A DNA stretch of 64,000 nucleotides from Pedobacter psychrophilus. Lineage in GTDB: Bacteria > Bacteroidota > Bacteroidia > Sphingobacteriales > Sphingobacteriaceae. The stretch lies in contig NZ_LWHJ01000022.1 in assembly GCF_001652725.1 (NCBI RefSeq), positions 620,001 through 684,000 of the forward strand. Reading direction: 5' to 3'. Shown here piece by piece: positions 1 to 48,498 of the stretch. How positions within the stretch are numbered: the first letter of the stretch is position 1; the number at the start of each line of letters is the position of its first letter. A program made the translations under genes and the position numbers. Under the pieces are notes generated by a model. The model was not told the DNA's origin. It saw only the letters and a program-made list of their open reading frames with translations, and made no database searches.

Positions 1-225
1 GCTAATACCATGCGTTCTGGAAATTACATTTCAGACCATGATCAAAAAATATCTCAAAAATTAGGTTATGTAATGTGTGGTGGCGATTTATCTGCTCCAA
101 CTTTGGTAACCGAACAATATTTATTGGATTTAGAAAGAGAGGCTTTTTTGAGTTTGTGTGGTGAGAAGAAGACGTTAGAGAGAATTCAGAGCATCATTAC
201 TAAAGGGAAACCGTTGCGTAATTAG
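1..225 (+). CDS. 3-hydroxyacyl-CoA dehydrogenase, C-terminal end (partial)
   Basis: Reading frame open at the left edge, so only the last 74 codons are present; the frame starts at base 1. The residues (ISDHDQKISQKLGYVMCGGD, then an acidic helix ending in KGKPLRN) resemble the C-terminus of Bacteroidota enoyl-CoA hydratase/3-hydroxyacyl-CoA dehydrogenase proteins, which carry out the second and third steps of fatty-acid beta-oxidation in the cytoplasm. The thiolase and acyl-CoA dehydrogenase that follow on the same strand strongly support this. The NAD-binding and hydratase domains lie outside the window, so one- or two-domain architecture cannot be told. A heptad array begins on the base right after the stop codon. 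Confidence 0.75.
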   Translation, partial: ANTMRSGNYISDHDQKISQKLGYVMCGGDLSAPTLVTEQYLLDLEREAFLSLCGEKKTLERIQSIITKGKPLRN

Positions 226-253
226 TATTGCGATATGAGTATTGGGTATTGAG
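226..253 (+). repeat. Period-7 boundary array L0 (TATTGAG type)
   Basis: Four contiguous heptamers start on the first base after the preceding stop: TATTGCG, ATATGAG, TATTGGG, TATTGAG. The same four-unit pattern recurs at 651-678 and, imperfectly, at 2036-2056 and (minus strand) at 48054-48081. Confidence 0.85.
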
Positions 254-288
254 AGCTTTTCAAACTTGATAAAAACAAGAATAAAAAT

Positions 289-642
289 ATGCATAACGTC
301 AAAGAACTAAAAATTTGGAATAAAGCAATGGATTTAGCAGTTCAAGTTTATCAACTATCTTCAAAATTTCCACCAGATGAAAGGTTTAACTTAATTTCTC
401 AGGTAAGAAGATGTGCTGTTTCTATTCCTTCTAATATTTCAGAAGGAGCAGGGAGAAATACAAAAGGAGAATTTAAACAATTCCTTGGAATAGCCAATGG
501 TTCATCTTATGAATTGCAAACTCAAATTATTATTGCAAATAAATTAAATTTTATTGATGAGAAATCTACAAATGAGATTTTAGAGGTCATCGATGAAATT
601 CAAAAAATGAATTATAAACTTCAATTATCATTAAGTAAATAA
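289..642 (+). CDS. Four helix bundle protein (S23 / 23S rRNA intervening-sequence protein family)
   Basis: 117 aa, normal length for the TIGR02436/S23 family. The order is typical: N-terminal VKELKIWNKAMDLAVQVY, central YQLSSKFPPDERFNLISQVRR, then AVSIPSNISEGAGR, a SYELQTQ segment and a C-terminal helix, giving four amphipathic helices. Family members are found in 23S rRNA intervening sequences and singly in Bacteroidota genomes; Avd of diversity-generating retroelements shares the fold. Its biochemical function is unknown. Here it sits between two beta-oxidation genes with no reverse transcriptase or template repeat in view. Matching heptad arrays flank it on both sides (226-253 and 651-678), which suggests insertion into a pre-existing repeat. 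No signal peptide or membrane segment. Confidence 0.9.
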   Translation: MHNVKELKIWNKAMDLAVQVYQLSSKFPPDERFNLISQVRRCAVSIPSNISEGAGRNTKGEFKQFLGIANGSSYELQTQIIIANKLNFIDEKSTNEILEVIDEIQKMNYKLQLSLSK

Positions 643-650
643 ATTGATAG

Positions 651-678
651 TATTTAGATGTGAGTATTGCGTATTGAG
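651..678 (+). repeat. Period-7 boundary array L1 (TATTGAG type)
   Basis: Heptamers TATTTAG, ATGTGAG, TATTGCG, TATTGAG, aligning unit for unit with the array at 226-253. It starts 8 nt after the stop of the S23 gene, so S23 is bracketed by direct copies of the same 28-nt pattern. Confidence 0.85.
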
Positions 679-722
679 AACTTATAAAACGTTTGAAAAT
701 AATTTCAAATGCAATAAATCAT

Positions 723-784
723 CTCATTACTCAATACGCCCTACTCAATACTAAAATAAAACCCTACTCAATACTAAAATAAAA
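723..784 (+). repeat. Period-7 boundary array R1 (CTCAATA type) with a 23-bp tandem duplication
   Basis: Heptamers CTCATTA, CTCAATA, CGCCCTA, CTCAATA, the inverted form of the L arrays, followed by A-rich sequence. A 23-bp unit starting CCCTACTCAATACTAA is present twice head to tail (739-761 and 762-784) without mismatch, showing local duplication. Confidence 0.8.
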
Positions 785-809
785 TTAAATAAGGACGTAA
801 GCAAGTCAT

Positions 810-844
810 CTCAATACTCAATACGCCCTACTCAATACTAATAA
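810..844 (+). repeat. Period-7 boundary array R1b abutting the fadA start
   Basis: Five heptamers, CTCAATA, CTCAATA, CGCCCTA, CTCAATA, CTAATAA, end 4 nt before the fadA ATG (849). The array matches the one before fadE (2106-2140) in unit order and phase. It therefore forms the translation initiation region of fadA, and no Shine-Dalgarno-like purine tract intervenes. Confidence 0.85.
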
Positions 845-848
845 GAAT

Positions 849-2024
849 ATGGAAGCATACATCATAGCAGGATACAGAACAGCAGTTGGAAAAGCTCCAC
901 GCGGAGTATTTCGTTTTACCAGAGCAGATGATTTGGCTGCAGAAGTAATTCGTGAATTGGTTGCGTCAGTTCCAAATTTGGATAAAGAGCAAATAGACGA
1001 TGTGATTGTCGGAAACGCTACACCAGAAGCGGAACAAGGTTTAAACATTGCCCGAATGGTTTCTTTAATGGGATTGGATACTGATAAAGTCCCAGGTGTT
1101 ACGGTAAATCGTTATTGTGCTTCAGGATTAGAAACCATCGCTACAGCAGTAGCAAAAATCAAAGCCGGTATGGCAGATTGCATTATTGCCGGTGGGGTAG
1201 AAGTAATGAGCGGAATGCCTTTTGGAGGATGGAAAATTGTTCCCAACCCAGAGGTGGCGATTAAAAATCCAGATTGGTATTGGGGCATGGGTTTAACTGC
1301 CGAAGCTGTTTCAAAAGAATATAATGTTAATCGAGAGGATCAAGATGAGTTTGCATTAAAATCTCATAAAAAAGCGATTGAAGCCATTAAAAATGGTCAT
1401 CTAAAAGATGGTGTTTTACCAATCACCGTTAAGGAAAATTACCTTGACGAGAACATGAAAAAGAAAACTCGCGAATATGTAGTTGATACAGATGAAGGTC
1501 CTAGAGCAGATACTTCAATATCGGCATTAGCCAAATTAAAACCTGTGTTTGCTGCTGACGGCTCTGTTACGGCAGGAAATTCTTCTCAAACATCAGACGG
1601 TGCAGCATTCGTTTTAGTAGTTTCAGAAAAAATGCTGAAGCAATTAAATGTGGAGCCAATTGCAAGATTAGTAAGCTATTCAGTTGCTGGCGTTCCACCA
1701 AGAATTATGGGAATTGGTCCAATCGAAGCAATTCCAAAAGCTTTAAAACAAGCCGATTTGAAATTGGAACAAATCGATTTGATTGAGCTAAATGAAGCTT
1801 TTGCATCACAATCTTTAGCAGTGATCAGAAAATTAGGTCTAGATACCGATAAAGTGAATGTAAACGGAGGTGCAATTGCACTTGGACATCCATTGGGTTG
1901 TACAGGAGCAAAACTTTCTGTTCAAATATTCAATGAATTAAAACGAAGAGATAAAAAATATGGCATGGTAACCATGTGCGTAGGCAGCGGACAAGGTGCA
2001 GCTGGGATTTTTGAAATGTTATAA
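849..2024 (+). CDS. fadA: Acetyl-CoA C-acyltransferase (3-ketoacyl-CoA thiolase)
   Basis: 391 aa, standard thiolase length. It releases acetyl-CoA from 3-ketoacyl-CoA in the last step of beta-oxidation, in the cytoplasm. Visible residues: acylated nucleophile Cys90 in NRYCASGL, the GGVEVMSGMPFGG loop, LIELNEAFAS, catalytic His347 in GGAIALGHPLG and proton-shuttling Cys377 in MCVGSGQGAAG. All three catalytic residues are intact. It lies between the hydroxyacyl-CoA dehydrogenase end and an acyl-CoA dehydrogenase, consistent with a fad operon interrupted by the S23 gene. The start is the ATG right after a heptad array; the N-terminus MEAYIIAGYRTAVGK matches the family. Confidence 0.95.
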   Translation: MEAYIIAGYRTAVGKAPRGVFRFTRADDLAAEVIRELVASVPNLDKEQIDDVIVGNATPEAEQGLNIARMVSLMGLDTDKVPGVTVNRYCASGLETIATAVAKIKAGMADCIIAGGVEVMSGMPFGGWKIVPNPEVAIKNPDWYWGMGLTAEAVSKEYNVNREDQDEFALKSHKKAIEAIKNGHLKDGVLPITVKENYLDENMKKKTREYVVDTDEGPRADTSISALAKLKPVFAADGSVTAGNSSQTSDGAAFVLVVSEKMLKQLNVEPIARLVSYSVAGVPPRIMGIGPIEAIPKALKQADLKLEQIDLIELNEAFASQSLAVIRKLGLDTDKVNVNGGAIALGHPLGCTGAKLSVQIFNELKRRDKKYGMVTMCVGSGQGAAGIFEML

Positions 2025-2025
2025 G

Positions 2026-2056
2026 TATTAATGAGTATTGCGATTTGAGTATTGCG
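2026..2056 (+). repeat. Period-7 boundary array L2 (TATTGCG type)
   Basis: Begins within 2 nt of the fadA stop. In-phase heptamers TATTGCG, ATTTGAG, TATTGCG occupy 2036-2056, preceded by a shifted TATTAATGAG. Confidence 0.8.
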
Positions 2057-2105
2057 ATACCTAACCAATTGATATATAGAGAAATGATAATAACTAGAGC
2101 AAGGT

Positions 2106-2140
2106 CTCAATACCCAATACGCTCTACTCAATACTGATAA
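2106..2140 (+). repeat. Period-7 boundary array R2 abutting the fadE start
   Basis: Heptamers CTCAATA, CCCAATA, CGCTCTA, CTCAATA, CTGATAA, ending 3 nt before the fadE ATG at 2144. Unit order is the same as at 810-844, with point differences only, so the two leaders are diverged copies. With the array at 2026-2056 it forms imperfect inverted arms around a loop of about 50 nt. Confidence 0.85.
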
Positions 2141-2143
2141 AAA

Positions 2144-3934
2144 ATGGAAACAACAGAGAAAACAACAACAAAAGGTGGAGAATTTATCATCTCCGACACG
2201 GATTTTAATGATGTATTTATCCCAGAAGAATTTGATGAAGAACAGTTAATGATTCAAAAAACATGTGAGGATTTCTTAACTGCTGAAGTTTTTCCAAATC
2301 TAGACAGAATAGATAAACAAGAAGAAGGTTTGATGGAATCCTTAATGGATAAAGCCGGAGAACTGGGTTTATTAGCTGTTTCTATTCCAGAAGAATATGG
2401 AGGTTTTGGTAAAAACTTTAACACTTCCATGTTAGTTACTGATGCCATTGGTGCCGGGCATTCATTTGCGGTGGCACTTTCTGCACATACAGGGATTGGT
2501 ACTTTGCCGATTCTATATTATGGTACTAAAGAACAAAAGGATAAATATATTCCAAAACTGGCTTCAGGTGAATGGAAAGCTTCCTATTGTTTAACTGAAC
2601 CAAATTCTGGCTCTGATGCAAATTCTGGAAAAACTAAAGCAATTTTAAATCCTGAGGGAACACATTATATCATTACTGGACAAAAAATGTGGATCACCAA
2701 TGGTGGTTTTGCCGATATTTTCATCGTGTTCGCAAAGATTGATGATGATAAAAACCTCTCTGCATTTATAGTAGAGAAAGATTTTGGAGGCATCACCATG
2801 AATCCCGAAGAGCATAAAATGGGAATTAAAGGCTCATCAACACGTCAGGTTTTCTTTAACGATTGCCCGGTTCCTAAGGAAAATTTGTTGTCAGAAAGAG
2901 AAAATGGATTTAAAATCGCAGTAAATATTTTAAATATTGGTCGTATTAAATTGGGTGCTGCTGCAATTGGTTCATCACGTAAAGTACTAGACCAAGCGAT
3001 TAATTATTCTAATGAAAGGGTTCAGTTTGGATTGAACATCTCAAAATTTGGAGCAATAAGATATAAACTTGCCGAAATGGCAACCCGTAATTTCGCTGTT
3101 GAAAGTGCAGCTTACAGGGCTGGTCAAAATATTGATGATGCTTACGATGCTTTGATAGAAGGTGGAATGGATAGCGGAAAAGCAAAGCTCAAATCGACAG
3201 AACAATTTGCTGTAGAATGCGCAATTATTAAGGTTTGGGGTTCTGAGGTTTTAGATTATATCGTTGATGAAGGCGTTCAGGTTTATGGCGGAATGGGTTA
3301 CAGTGCCGATGCGCCAATGGACAGAGCTTATCGCGATAGCCGTATCAACCGTATTTTTGAAGGAACAAATGAGATAAATCGTTTATTGATTGTTGATATG
3401 CTTTTGAAAAGAGCATTAAAAGGCGAGTTAGATTTAATGACTCCAGCCACTGCTGTTGCTGGTGAGTTAATGTCGATTCCTGAATTTGGCGACGAAGATG
3501 ATTCTTTATTTGCAGCAGAATTGAAAACCCTAAAGAACTTGAAGAAAGCAGGTTTAATGATTGCCGGAGCAACTGTTCAAAAACTGATGATGACGCTTTC
3601 TAAAGAGCAGGAAATTCTGATGAACATTGCTGATATTATAGGTTATGCTTATGTTGCAGAATCCACAATTTTAAGAGTGCAGAAATTGGTTTCGATGCGT
3701 GGCGAAGAAGCTTGTGCCGGTCAGTTGGATATGATGCGCATTTACTTACAAAAAGCAGTTGACCAAACAGCCTTGGCCGGTAAAGAAGCTTTAAACTCTT
3801 TCGCCGAAGGCGATGAATTAAATATGATGTTGATGGGCTTACGCCGATTTACAAAGGCGAAACCTTTTAATATTAAAGATGCTCGTCAGCGTGTTGCAAA
3901 GCAATTGATTGAAGCGAATAAATATTGTTATTAA
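2144..3934 (+). CDS. fadE: Acyl-CoA dehydrogenase, long form
   Basis: 596 aa flavoprotein that oxidises acyl-CoA to trans-2-enoyl-CoA, the first beta-oxidation step. Residues about 20-430 are the FAD-dependent core: YCLTEPNSGSDA and MWITNGGFADIF (substrate and FAD binding), GVQVYGGMGYSADAPMDR, and the catalytic base Glu406 in RIFEGTNEINR. About 170 extra C-terminal residues form the helical extension seen in VLCAD-like and Bacteroidota acyl-CoA dehydrogenases. The gene follows fadA by 119 nt of heptad-repeat spacer and ends at a pair of terminators. No signal peptide. The electron acceptor, presumably ETF, is not in the window. Confidence 0.93.
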   Translation: METTEKTTTKGGEFIISDTDFNDVFIPEEFDEEQLMIQKTCEDFLTAEVFPNLDRIDKQEEGLMESLMDKAGELGLLAVSIPEEYGGFGKNFNTSMLVTDAIGAGHSFAVALSAHTGIGTLPILYYGTKEQKDKYIPKLASGEWKASYCLTEPNSGSDANSGKTKAILNPEGTHYIITGQKMWITNGGFADIFIVFAKIDDDKNLSAFIVEKDFGGITMNPEEHKMGIKGSSTRQVFFNDCPVPKENLLSERENGFKIAVNILNIGRIKLGAAAIGSSRKVLDQAINYSNERVQFGLNISKFGAIRYKLAEMATRNFAVESAAYRAGQNIDDAYDALIEGGMDSGKAKLKSTEQFAVECAIIKVWGSEVLDYIVDEGVQVYGGMGYSADAPMDRAYRDSRINRIFEGTNEINRLLIVDMLLKRALKGELDLMTPATAVAGELMSIPEFGDEDDSLFAAELKTLKNLKKAGLMIAGATVQKLMMTLSKEQEILMNIADIIGYAYVAESTILRVQKLVSMRGEEACAGQLDMMRIYLQKAVDQTALAGKEALNSFAEGDELNMMLMGLRRFTKAKPFNIKDARQRVAKQLIEANKYCY

Positions 3935-3942
3935 TTTTAATC

Positions 3943-3975
3943 AGACTTACGAAGGTTCAAAAACTTCATAAGTCT
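3943..3975. repeat. 33-bp interspersed inverted repeat, copy 1
   Basis: Starts AGACTTACGAAGG and ends CTTCATAAGTCT, giving an imperfect hairpin just after fadE. A second copy of the same element, nearly identical, lies at 24401-24433. Confidence 0.8.
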
Positions 3976-3988
3976 TAAAAAAGTGAAA

Positions 3989-4019
3989 GCCATTCAAAGT
4001 TATTTTGAACGGCTTTTTT
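3989..4019 (+). terminator. Rho-independent terminator of the fad operon
   Basis: Stem GCCATTCAAA with TTTGAACGGC (one A-C mismatch) followed by a run of T. The hairpin is almost the same sequence as the terminator at 6786-6817 after the sulfatase gene, where the stem is perfect. Confidence 0.85.
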
Positions 4020-4028
4020 GTGTTTAAC

Positions 4029-4048
4029 GAGTTTGATAACTCTTTTTT
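4029..4048 (+). terminator. Second, short terminator in tandem
   Basis: GAGTT, loop TGAT, AACTC, then six T, 10 nt downstream of the first terminator. Confidence 0.5.
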
Positions 4049-4291
4049 ATCTTGTTAATCCGTAATCACGCTACGTTTAATGATACGAAACAGTTGGGGC
4101 TGTTGGATTCTTAGTCATGCAGCATATGACTGTATGTTTTTAGCGAAATTGAAAACTATTATTTATTAATCTCTAGTTAAACCTCGTTTAAAGTTCGTGA
4201 ATTGTTTAGTTTAAATTATTTGAAAAAATATTATTCTTAATAAATATATTTTCAGTTATTTTTATCTTTAAGAAAATTAATTTCAAATAGT

Positions 4292-4756
4292 ATGAAAAAG
4301 TCGATTTTAGCAATTGCCATTGCTATGGCTTTAAATGTAGTTACATTGGCCCAAACCGCTCCTGAAAAGGTTTCGGAGTGGAAGATTGTAACCGTTGTAG
4401 AATCCATAGTTCCTATGGGTGTAGGTAGATCTAGAATGATTGAAAACACCACAGAGGTTAACACCGATCAATTTCGTACTAACCGCACAGATGGTAAAAA
4501 ATCTGACCAAAGAAGTGTAAGTAGAAGCGAATTAAAAATAGAGAAATTTGATGAAGCTAAATTATTAAACTTTTTTAGTGCTGTAGGTATTAATTTTCAA
4601 AACATAGCATCTAATGATGCTATGATTGGTGCAAGAATTATGGAATTAGAAGGGCTTGGATATAAGTTAATTTATGTTACCAGTGGAGTAGAAAGTCATG
4701 CGGGAGGAGACGATCCAGGAGGTATTTTTATTACCAGAATGTTTTTTAAGAAATAA
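4292..4756 (+). CDS. Secreted protein of unknown function
   Basis: 154 aa. An N-terminal signal peptide (MKKSILAIAIAMALNVVTLA, cleavage probably after LAQ) sends it to the periplasm or beyond. The mature part begins with KVSEWKIVTVVESIVPMGVGRSRM and ends with GLGYKLIYVTSGVES followed by GGIFITRMFFKK, suggesting a small mixed alpha/beta fold. I do not recognise a family. It stands alone, with terminators upstream and a 581-nt spacer downstream. The initiating ATG is the first codon of a classical signal peptide, so the start is well supported. Confidence 0.75.
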   Translation: MKKSILAIAIAMALNVVTLAQTAPEKVSEWKIVTVVESIVPMGVGRSRMIENTTEVNTDQFRTNRTDGKKSDQRSVSRSELKIEKFDEAKLLNFFSAVGINFQNIASNDAMIGARIMELEGLGYKLIYVTSGVESHAGGDDPGGIFITRMFFKK

Positions 4757-47675: not shown

Positions 47676-48002
47676 TTAAACAGAGAAACTTTCTCCGCAA
47701 CCACAAGTACGTGATGCATTAGGATTGATAAAATTAAAACCTTTACCATTTAATCCGTCAGAAAAATCTAATTCTGTTCCTGCTAAATAAAGGAATGATT
47801 TCATGTCTAAAACAATTTTTAATCCTTTATCTTCAAAATCTTGATCACCTTTTTGGGTTTCATTATCAAAATCCATATTGTAAGACAATCCAGAACATCC
47901 ACCTCCCTTAACAGAAACACGAAGGAAATAAGATTCATCTAACCCCGAACCTGTCATTAACTCTTCTATTTTGCTTTTTGCTTTATCTGTTATTGTAACC
48001 AT
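47676..48002 (-). CDS. iscA: Iron-sulfur cluster assembly A-type protein
   Basis: 108 aa from the ATG at 48002; upstream in-frame codons to 48065 translate the heptad repeat array and should not be coding. A-type scaffold/carrier with the three conserved Cys at 36 (GGGCSGLSY), 100 and 102 (TCGCGESF). It delivers clusters to apoproteins. Last gene of the iscS-iscU-iscA operon; separated from iscU by inverted period-7 arrays. Confidence 0.95.
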   Translation of the reverse strand: MVTITDKAKSKIEELMTGSGLDESYFLRVSVKGGGCSGLSYNMDFDNETQKGDQDFEDKGLKIVLDMKSFLYLAGTELDFSDGLNGKGFNFINPNASRTCGCGESFSV

Positions 48003-48012
48003 AGTTTTAAAG

Positions 48013-48040
48013 TATTGAGATTTGCGTATAGTGTATTGAG
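48013..48040 (-). repeat. Period-7 boundary array R3 before iscA
   Basis: Plus-strand units TATTGAG, ATTTGCG, TATAGTG, TATTGAG. Read in the direction of transcription (minus) this is a CTCAATA array ending 10 nt before the iscA ATG. Partner arm at 48054-48081. Confidence 0.85.
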
Positions 48041-48053
48041 TAATTTCCAAAGT

Positions 48054-48081
48054 CGCAATACTCAATACTTACATCGCAATA
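48054..48081 (-). repeat. Period-7 boundary array L3 after iscU
   Basis: Plus-strand units CGCAATA, CTCAATA, CTTACAT, CGCAATA. In the direction of transcription it reads TATTGCG, ATGTAAG, TATTGAG, TATTGCG, starting 3 nt after the iscU stop. The two arms flank a 13-nt loop, making a complete compact stop-arm-loop-arm-start unit. Confidence 0.85.
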
Positions 48082-48084
48082 CAA

Positions 48085-48498
48085 TTAATGATGCGATTTC
48101 TCTAACTCAATAGCTTCCATTCCGTTTTTAACACGGTAATCGTTAATTGCAGATTTTATAGCATCTTCTGCTAACACTGAACAGTGAATTTTAACTGGTG
48201 GTAAAGCCAATTCTTCTACAATATCCATGTTATCGATAGTTAATGCATCATCAATAGATTTGCCTTTTAACCATTCTGTAGCTAAAGATGAAGAAGCAAT
48301 TGCAGAACCACAACCAAAGGTTTTAAACTTTGCATCTGTTATCATGTGATTTTCATCAACTTCAATTTGTAAACGCATTACGTCTCCACATTCTGGTGCA
48401 CCTACTAAACCAGTACCTACACTTTTTTTAGATTTATCTAGCGTTCCAACGTTTCTTGGATTACTATAATGATCAATTACTTTATCTGAATATGCCAT
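48085..48498 (-). CDS. iscU: Fe-S cluster scaffold protein
   Basis: 137 aa. Cluster ligands Cys37 (GAPECGDVM), Cys63 (FGCGSAIAS) and Cys106 (VKIHCSVLAEDAI), with LPPVKIHCSVLA as the HscA-binding region. It assembles [2Fe-2S] clusters from IscS sulfur. Lies between iscS and iscA on the minus strand. No hscA/hscB in the window. Confidence 0.97.
   Translation of the reverse strand: MAYSDKVIDHYSNPRNVGTLDKSKKSVGTGLVGAPECGDVMRLQIEVDENHMITDAKFKTFGCGSAIASSSLATEWLKGKSIDDALTIDNMDIVEELALPPVKIHCSVLAEDAIKSAINDYRVKNGMEAIELEKSHH

Follow-up and report, generated by a model that had tools for sequence, protein, structure and literature searches.

Heptad-armed S23 genes between operon genes in Pedobacter psychrophilus and other bacteria: candidate relatives of the 23S rRNA intervening sequences

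Why should the gaps between the fadJ-, fadA- and fadE-like genes of Pedobacter psychrophilus be lined with seven-nucleotide units (heptads) that stand inverted to one another at the two ends of a gap? The question is posed by a 64,000-nucleotide stretch of contig NZ_LWHJ01000022.1 (positions 620,001 to 684,000; hereafter, the window), in which a gene of the S23 or 23S rRNA intervening-sequence protein family lies between fadJ and fadA. A sequence-only reading of the window had described TATTGAG-type heptads after the fadJ, S23 and fadA stop codons and inverted CTCAATA-type heptads before the fadA and fadE starts, all of which can be read directly from the DNA. It had regarded S23 as a mere neighbour and the arms as a host device that protects mRNA ends or spaces translation. 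We consider it fairly probable that the arms are instead the terminal inverted repeats of selfish elements, similar to the intervening sequences (IVS) of 23S rRNA, which settle in the gaps of operons and carry S23 within a loop that a heptad stem closes. Elements of IVS type, carrying S23 between protein genes and having heptad-coded ends, fit more of the facts than does the earlier explanation.

Arms, S23 gene and predicted hairpins of the window

All features of the fad region lie on the plus strand. The 3' end of the fadJ-like gene (1–225; the gene name is that of the sequence-only reading) closes with TAG at 223–225, and immediately 3' of it is the first forward arm, F1 (226–253), with heptads TATTGCG ATATGAG TATTGGG TATTGAG. 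The S23 open reading frame (ORF) of 117 amino acids, the putative cargo of the element, follows at 289–642 with its stop codon at 640–642. A second forward arm, F2 (651–678; TATTTAG ATGTGAG TATTGCG TATTGAG), is the predicted partner of the reverse arm R1 (723–757; CTCATTA CTCAATA CGCCCTA CTCAATA CTAAAAT) in an inner hairpin that lacks S23. R1 is followed by a partial second copy at 764–780, a distinction that the earlier reading had not drawn. The outer reverse arm, R2 (810–844; CTCAATA CTCAATA CGCCCTA CTCAATA CTAATAA), is predicted to close the element around S23. Beyond the thiolase (fadA-like) host gene (849–2024, stop 2022–2024; PF00108/PF02803) a hairpin without S23 is made up of F3 (2029–2056; TAATGAG TATTGCG ATTTGAG TATTGCG) and R3 (2106–2140; CTCAATA CCCAATA CGCTCTA CTCAATA CTGATAA), and the acyl-CoA dehydrogenase (fadE-like) host gene (2144–3934; NF058590) comes next. 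The forward arms begin 0–8 nt past the stop codons, R2 ends 4 nt before the fadA start, and R3 ends 3 nt before the fadE start.

The arms were compared with dinucleotide-preserving shuffles of the gaps, scoring inverted matches over 28 nt and lag-7 identity over a 21-nt window. The best inverted match was 22/28 in the S23/fadA gap and 21/28 in the fadA/fadE gap, neither of which was equalled in 200 shuffles, and the best lag-7 window was 15/21 in both (equalled by 7 of 500 and 1 of 500 shuffles, respectively). The inversion claimed earlier is thus borne out against shuffles in these two gaps. The third gap of the earlier description, fadJ/S23, is weak by itself (lag-7 12/21, matched by 30 of 500 shuffles), because the inverted partner of F1, R2, sits past the S23 gene. 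A further hairpin without S23 and with the same heptamer lies on the minus strand, with its F arm at 48054–48081 and its R arm at 48013–48040; in the surrounding gap (47995–48110) the inverted match of 21/28 was reached by none of 200 shuffles and the lag-7 score by 3 of 500. The minus-strand genes that flank this hairpin presumably resemble iscA and iscU.

Folding into hairpins, another suggestion of the sequence-only reading, is supported by the predicted folds. In the fold of 222–848, F1 pairs with R2, S23 lies in the loop and the F2–R1 hairpin is nested inside; its energy is −135 kcal/mol, compared with an average of −100 kcal/mol over 20 shuffles (z −5.3). The fadA/fadE hairpin had z −3.3 (0 of 200 shuffles equal) and the 48013–48081 hairpin z −2.5 (1 of 200 equal). 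Positions 1–4300 of the window gave no Rfam match up to E 1. The pattern TATTGNGTATTGNG, allowing at most one mismatch and counting overlaps, has 61 matches in the P. psychrophilus genome and 11 when reversed.

The S23 product matches PF05635 (E 1.1e-39; 135.3 bits, cut-off 33.8), TIGR02436 (E 1.1e-35) and 2gsc_A (E 9.3e-21), and 2gsc, which is XCC0516, is its solved relative. The Xanthomonas campestris S23p is reported to be a homopentamer of four-helix bundles, and S23 proteins are described in the same source as having no known function (PMC4990558). PF05635 was found in 70 of 101 genomes of the family and in 157 of 198 of the phylum (153 above cut-off). Alignment conservation reached 1.00 at Q38 and E52, 0.99 at R41, N49, G53, S72 and E75, and 0.90 at R56. 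The median ratio of nonsynonymous to synonymous substitution rates (dN/dS) was 0.068 in the 164 of 213 pairs, non-independent ones, that had unsaturated dS. As judged from these comparisons, S23 is under purifying selection.

S23 elements in other loci and genomes

Of the 219 S23 ORFs that we collected, the fad loci contributed 49, the family 86, the phylum 69 and plasmids 15; of the plasmid ORFs, 13 are cyanobacterial, 1 is from Gemmatimonadota and 1 from Azospirillum. The window's own copy is outside this set. Of an initial 151 hits 141 were unique and 135 passed the length and flank filters, and 84 more passed filters later. The loci were picked by us from the matches listed, mostly by best E-value, and are a non-random sample. 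An arm pair was defined as the best 28-nt match between the two flanks with at least 19 inverted matches, for which a set with swapped partners is the fair comparison. Such pairs flank 177 of the 219 ORFs, and swapping the partners lowers the number to 35; in the individual sets, 47/49 (fad), 73/86 (family), 50/69 (phylum) and 7/15 (plasmid) compare with 11, 13, 10 and 1. The arms thus accompany the gene that the sequence-only reading had regarded as a neighbour.

Within the paired arms, identity is 0.61/0.64 at lag 7 and 0.62/0.63 at lag 14, and 0.24–0.30 at lags 3–6 and 8–13; the lag-7 peak is present in the first, phylum and plasmid sets when compared with control stretches of the same loci. 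Four to six heptads make up 159 of 177 F arms and 156 of 177 R arms. The F arm is G-rich, with G exceeding C in 163 of 177 and C exceeding G in 9. For the 151 same-strand paired elements, the median distance from a stop codon to the start of the F window is 3 nt and that from the end of the R window to the following ORF 6 nt, with ORFs called crudely, in agreement with the earlier description of paired, inverted arms in seven-nucleotide phase at gene borders. The neighbouring genes are co-directional in 81/86 family, 59/63 phylum and 13/14 plasmid cases (6 edge cases dropped from the phylum and 1 from the plasmid set), compared to a fraction of 0.57–0.75 among ORF pairs from sampled stretches (three sets), and in 179 of 212 elements S23 shares its strand with the genes on either side. 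A table in PMC5524665 places a four helix bundle gene between the guanylate kinase and nicotinate-nucleotide adenylyltransferase genes, an order that is consistent with an insert between operon genes.

The heptamers differ from element to element and yet share a register, since 72 elements whose S23 proteins are less than 60% identical have in common n-A-G-(T)-n-n-n, in which G reaches 0.87 and A 0.68. The register carries 2.11 bits, as against 1.64 ± 0.03 (maximum 1.71) in 40 permuted sets. AG is present in 143 of 170 heptad consensuses from Bacteroidota, where 500 permutations averaged 92 and never exceeded 110 (redundant elements included), and in 7 of 7 from the plasmid set, which is small and G-rich (permuted mean 6.0). 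Arm and protein are also inherited together. S23 proteins that are 80–90% identical but sit at different fad sites have an arm similarity of 0.87 (20 pairs), and those that are 40–50% identical, compared in gap 1 only, have 0.55 (84 pairs), so that in these comparisons the heptamer tracks the S23 lineage rather than the site.

The orthologous fad gaps show how often the elements have turned over. Across 80 loci the fadJ-like tail was recovered by tblastn in 79, S23 was detected in the gaps by the same means, and a FadA+FadE tree served as the host tree; the nearest FadA relatives of the window among the matches listed are from Pedobacter and related metagenome-assembled genomes, with protein identity of at most 93%. 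S23 occupies gap 1 in 24 of 78 loci and gap 2 in 26 of 79, a patchwork in both, with at least 18 and at least 17 changes of presence on the tree. One S23 lineage also gives way to another, at least 7 times over the 21 gap-1 loci and at least 9 times over the 25 gap-2 loci that are occupied and have clear arms (counts restricted to elements with an arm pair). Distinct heptamer types can be seen by eye in these gaps (TATTGAG, TATCAAG, GATTTGA, AAGGAAC, AGTATTT). Copies in neighbouring gaps of one locus are 94% (L042) and 93% (L097) identical, and 47–73% identical in six other two-copy loci. It would appear that the changes include insertions rather than losses alone.

Arrays also occur without S23 beside them. 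Where the genome yielded no S23, 2 of 26 loci (L043, L074) have lag-7 arms in the fad gaps; where it bears S23, 41 of 52 do (leaving out L054 and L082). When only loci without S23 in the fad gaps are considered the link is weak, at 5/13 for S23-bearing genomes against 2/26 (p 0.03). Strong lag-7 sites numbered 12 in 400 kb of the P. psychrophilus genome, 10 in 400 kb of other S23-bearing genomes and 0 in 240 kb of S23-free ones. The preference for gene borders that had been claimed is not refuted, as 8 of the 12 sites in P. psychrophilus are intergenic in DNA that is 84% coding by crude ORF calls; the other 4, which overlap ORFs, are exceptions. Three tandem copies of NAGTATY, allowing one mismatch, were matched 1186 times in 24 S23-bearing genomes (our choice from 53) and 28 times in all 26 S23-free genomes, a single genome accounting for 18 of the 28. 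The Mann-Whitney p for S23 presence against array count is 5e-10 with kinship ignored, and we give it little weight because the S23-free genomes are mostly one clade and the independent changes are few: 23 of the 26 belong to a single clade (support 92, not starred), which also includes L039 with one S23.

Some lag-7 sites were located inside long ORFs by the crude finder (L232 18181–18233, L241 1413–1465, L245 13379–13416, L321 6702–6752, L325 16585–16625); these may be insertions into genes, chance occurrences or wrong ORF calls. Other dispersed palindromes are visible by eye in the fad gaps, CGTCATTGCGAGG...GAAGCAATC in L047, L048, L062, L065, L080, L094, L098 and L099, and CGTCACCCTGAATTTATTTCAGGGTC in L078, L084 and L093, suggesting that these gaps draw several repeat families.

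The proposed element and its alternatives

As we picture it, the full element would consist of an F arm, typically of four to six G-rich heptads, the S23 ORF, and an R arm that is the inverse of the first. It would be inserted, presumably by an enzyme, between the stop codon of one gene and the start codon of the next within operons, where it would do little harm. In the host transcript the arms would pair within the cell into a stem of about 28–35 bp that loops S23 out, as in the 23S rRNA intervening sequences. By analogy with Coxiella and other IVS, the stem would probably be cut by RNase III, which would free the host reading frames. The hairpins without S23 (fadA/fadE, the inner one of S23/fadA, and 48013–48081) would be derivatives or passengers. 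From the common register and the co-inheritance of arm and S23 we infer that the protein, a four-helix bundle with a pentameric solved relative, probably recognises AG every 7 nt, and S23 is probably needed for the spread or upkeep of the arrays.

Several observations weigh against this proposal. No arm pair reaches the cut-off in 42 of the 219 ORFs, 8 of them among the 15 plasmid ORFs, and L144, one of the three S23 genes of the P. psychrophilus genome itself, reaches 17/28. G-U pairs are not above A-C mismatches in same-strand elements (144 vs 192, binomial p 0.01 in the opposite direction), and in antisense elements the difference is not significant (21 vs 16). Selection on an RNA stem is therefore not seen and upkeep at the DNA level would suffice, so the missing excess counts against an RNA-only view. 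In 22 of 212 elements S23 runs antisense to the genes on both sides, and there the host transcript holds no sense S23. Neither a target-site duplication nor an exact junction was seen by eye in the fad gap sequences. The genome-level link of S23 and arrays comes down to 5 changes on the tree; of the 3 independent pairs, 2 support it, the third shows no difference and none contradicts it. Genes for Y1 transposases are distributed over the genomes much as S23 is, a warning that a clade effect may lie behind the link. Genome G301 (locus L043) has 18 array matches and fad-gap arms with no S23 found; arrays may outlive S23. The rRNA case of heptad arms, described below, comes from a single rRNA copy.

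The strongest competitor, which we nevertheless regard as rather unlikely, is a passive one. The arms would be quasi-palindromes that stay similar because replication slips in 7-nt steps and switches template across the hairpin; the presence of S23 would be incidental, and nothing would recognise the arms. The missing G-U excess would be expected on this model, as would the divergence of the arms as a unit with the element, and work cited in PMC4679880 had already put forward polymerase slippage as an origin of 7-nt repeats. Some arms are greatly enlarged, 7 of the 177 F arms having between 13 and 43 units. The model does not, however, predict an AG register shared by unrelated heptamers, nor the G-richness of the 5' arm. 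Purifying selection on S23 also speaks against it, as does the range over which arms accompany that gene: Bacteroidota, Cyanobacteria, a single Gemmatimonadota plasmid and a single rRNA gene. By eye, the F arms of L046 (gap 1), L104 (gap 2) and L256 look greatly enlarged, which points to slippage in 7-nt steps.

Less probable still is regulation by the host, in which border hairpins set mRNA stability or translational coupling in operons and S23 is an RNA-binding regulator. The placement between stop and start, the co-directional neighbours, the co-stranded S23 and the predicted folds would all suit such a role. A regulator would hardly come and go at the two fad gaps as often as the 17–18 or more changes among close relatives imply, with unrelated S23 lineages swapping, and both gaps measure just 4–29 nt in 15 of the 26 S23-free relatives (up to 167 nt in the others). 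The mRNA-end and translation-spacing function put forward by the sequence-only reading is retained within this alternative and is not supported as the main explanation, since the arms travel with S23, which comes and goes in orthologous gaps.

Y1 transposases are enzymes that act on hairpins. That the arrays are repetitive extragenic palindromic (REP)-like elements spread by such a transposase (RAYT/TnpA) is very unlikely, for although PF01797 occurs in 23/24 S23-bearing and 2/26 S23-free genomes, that pattern is probably a clade effect, 23 of the 26 S23-free genomes being in one clade, and the Y1 loci inspected are without heptad flanks, with lag-7 scores of 10–15/28 in the 20 loci inspected, out of 28 collected, and no clear excess over lags 5, 6, 8 and 9 (10–19), so that Y1 as the mobiliser is not supported. 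Many flanks of the Y1 loci, including L359–L366 from the P. psychrophilus genome, show other palindromes by eye.

Relation to known systems and wider meaning

The element of the window shares with the 23S rRNA IVS of Leptospira, Coxiella and Alphaproteobacteria the same protein family, looped out by a terminal inverted-repeat stem of similar length: it has an S23/IVP ORF, and in the predicted fold its terminal repeats place that ORF in the loop. The Coxiella IVS is reported to have a 28-bp terminal stem with S23 in the loop and to be cut by RNase III in vitro (PMC4990558). Unlike those sequences, the element of the window lies outside 23S rRNA, between fadJ and fadA, and its relatives are between protein genes, in many copies, with heptad arms of common AG register, for which no earlier description was seen among the papers listed. 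One S23 gene in our set, that of Azospirillum (L266), does sit within large-subunit rRNA, and it is the single rRNA case. Its arms are inverted in 25 of 28 positions (0 of 500 shuffles) with a lag-7 identity of 0.71 and lag-7 scores of 16/21 on both sides (0 of 500 each). This locus was searched separately, because the predicted ORF start falls inside the F arm and the general search had missed the pair (15/28).

Heptanucleotide short tandemly repeated repetitive sequences (STRRs) are a repeat class of the cyanobacteria. The arrays described here resemble them, and also the TAACTGA repeats, in having tandem heptamers that are mostly intergenic, near start codons and patchily distributed. The difference is that those repeats are direct, with no linked gene described, whereas most of the present arrays come in inverted pairs that bracket an S23 gene (177 of 219 paired). 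The sequence-only reading knew of no description of heptanucleotide repeats in Bacteroidota as paired arms around gene borders. That remark needs some correction, as TAACTGA repeats were reported in 2015 from Beggiatoaceae, Cyanobacteria and five Bacteroidetes (PMC4679880). The published repeats are described there as mostly direct, with one indirect, and a word search of that paper found no S23, four helix or intervening. Among the matches listed from open PubMed Central papers, none linked S23 or four helix bundle genes to heptamer repeats. In cyanobacterial plasmids, S23 ORFs are flanked by GGGAACA, GGGAGTA and GTCAGGA repeats as seen by eye, and only some of these form full inverted pairs. 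The plasmid copies (L253, L256, L261, L252) include three within CRISPR operons, cas6/S23/cas4 twice and cas10/S23/cmr3, and an S23 gene antisense between nrdB and nrdA.

REP/RAYT systems and miniature inverted-repeat transposable elements likewise consist of many-copy intergenic hairpins with a gene-bearing parent, but the S23 element has no visible transposase and the inspected Y1 loci have no heptad flanks. A distant relationship within four-helix bundles connects S23 to Avd of the diversity-generating retroelements (DGR): the window's protein matches bAvd (PF22296; E 1.4e-4) and DivGenRetAVD (E 1.6e-6), both under the cut-offs, the score for the DGR accessory protein Avd being 28.4 bits where 80 are required. 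Unlike the Avd systems, the element is without a reverse transcriptase, and RVT_1, present in 14/24 S23-bearing and 15/26 S23-free genomes, shows no association, so that a reverse transcriptase is not supported as the inserting enzyme either.

TRAP-type proteins form rings that bind regularly spaced NAG triplets. The ring and the regular recurrence of AG invite a comparison with S23, as an idea only; the fold is different, the spacing is 7 nt, and binding by S23 is suggested by sequence. We would go one step further only tentatively: heptanucleotide repeats in different bacterial phyla may have at their root a single class of mobile element that is guided by a protein. The S23 pentamer would read AG every 7 nt along the G-rich arm, with five subunits for about five heptads, much as TRAP does with NAG triplets, and one S23-heptad unit would appear in three guises: the IVS of rRNA, the insert that separates operon genes, and the free-standing STRR array.

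No maker of heptanucleotide repeats was found named in print, and the link between S23 and heptads joins two puzzles and makes both testable. S23 elements give a long-unexplained class of bacterial repeats a likely source. It is also predicted that many of the operon-internal genes annotated as "four helix bundle protein" would be the cargo of small selfish elements, and not members of the operons in which they are found.

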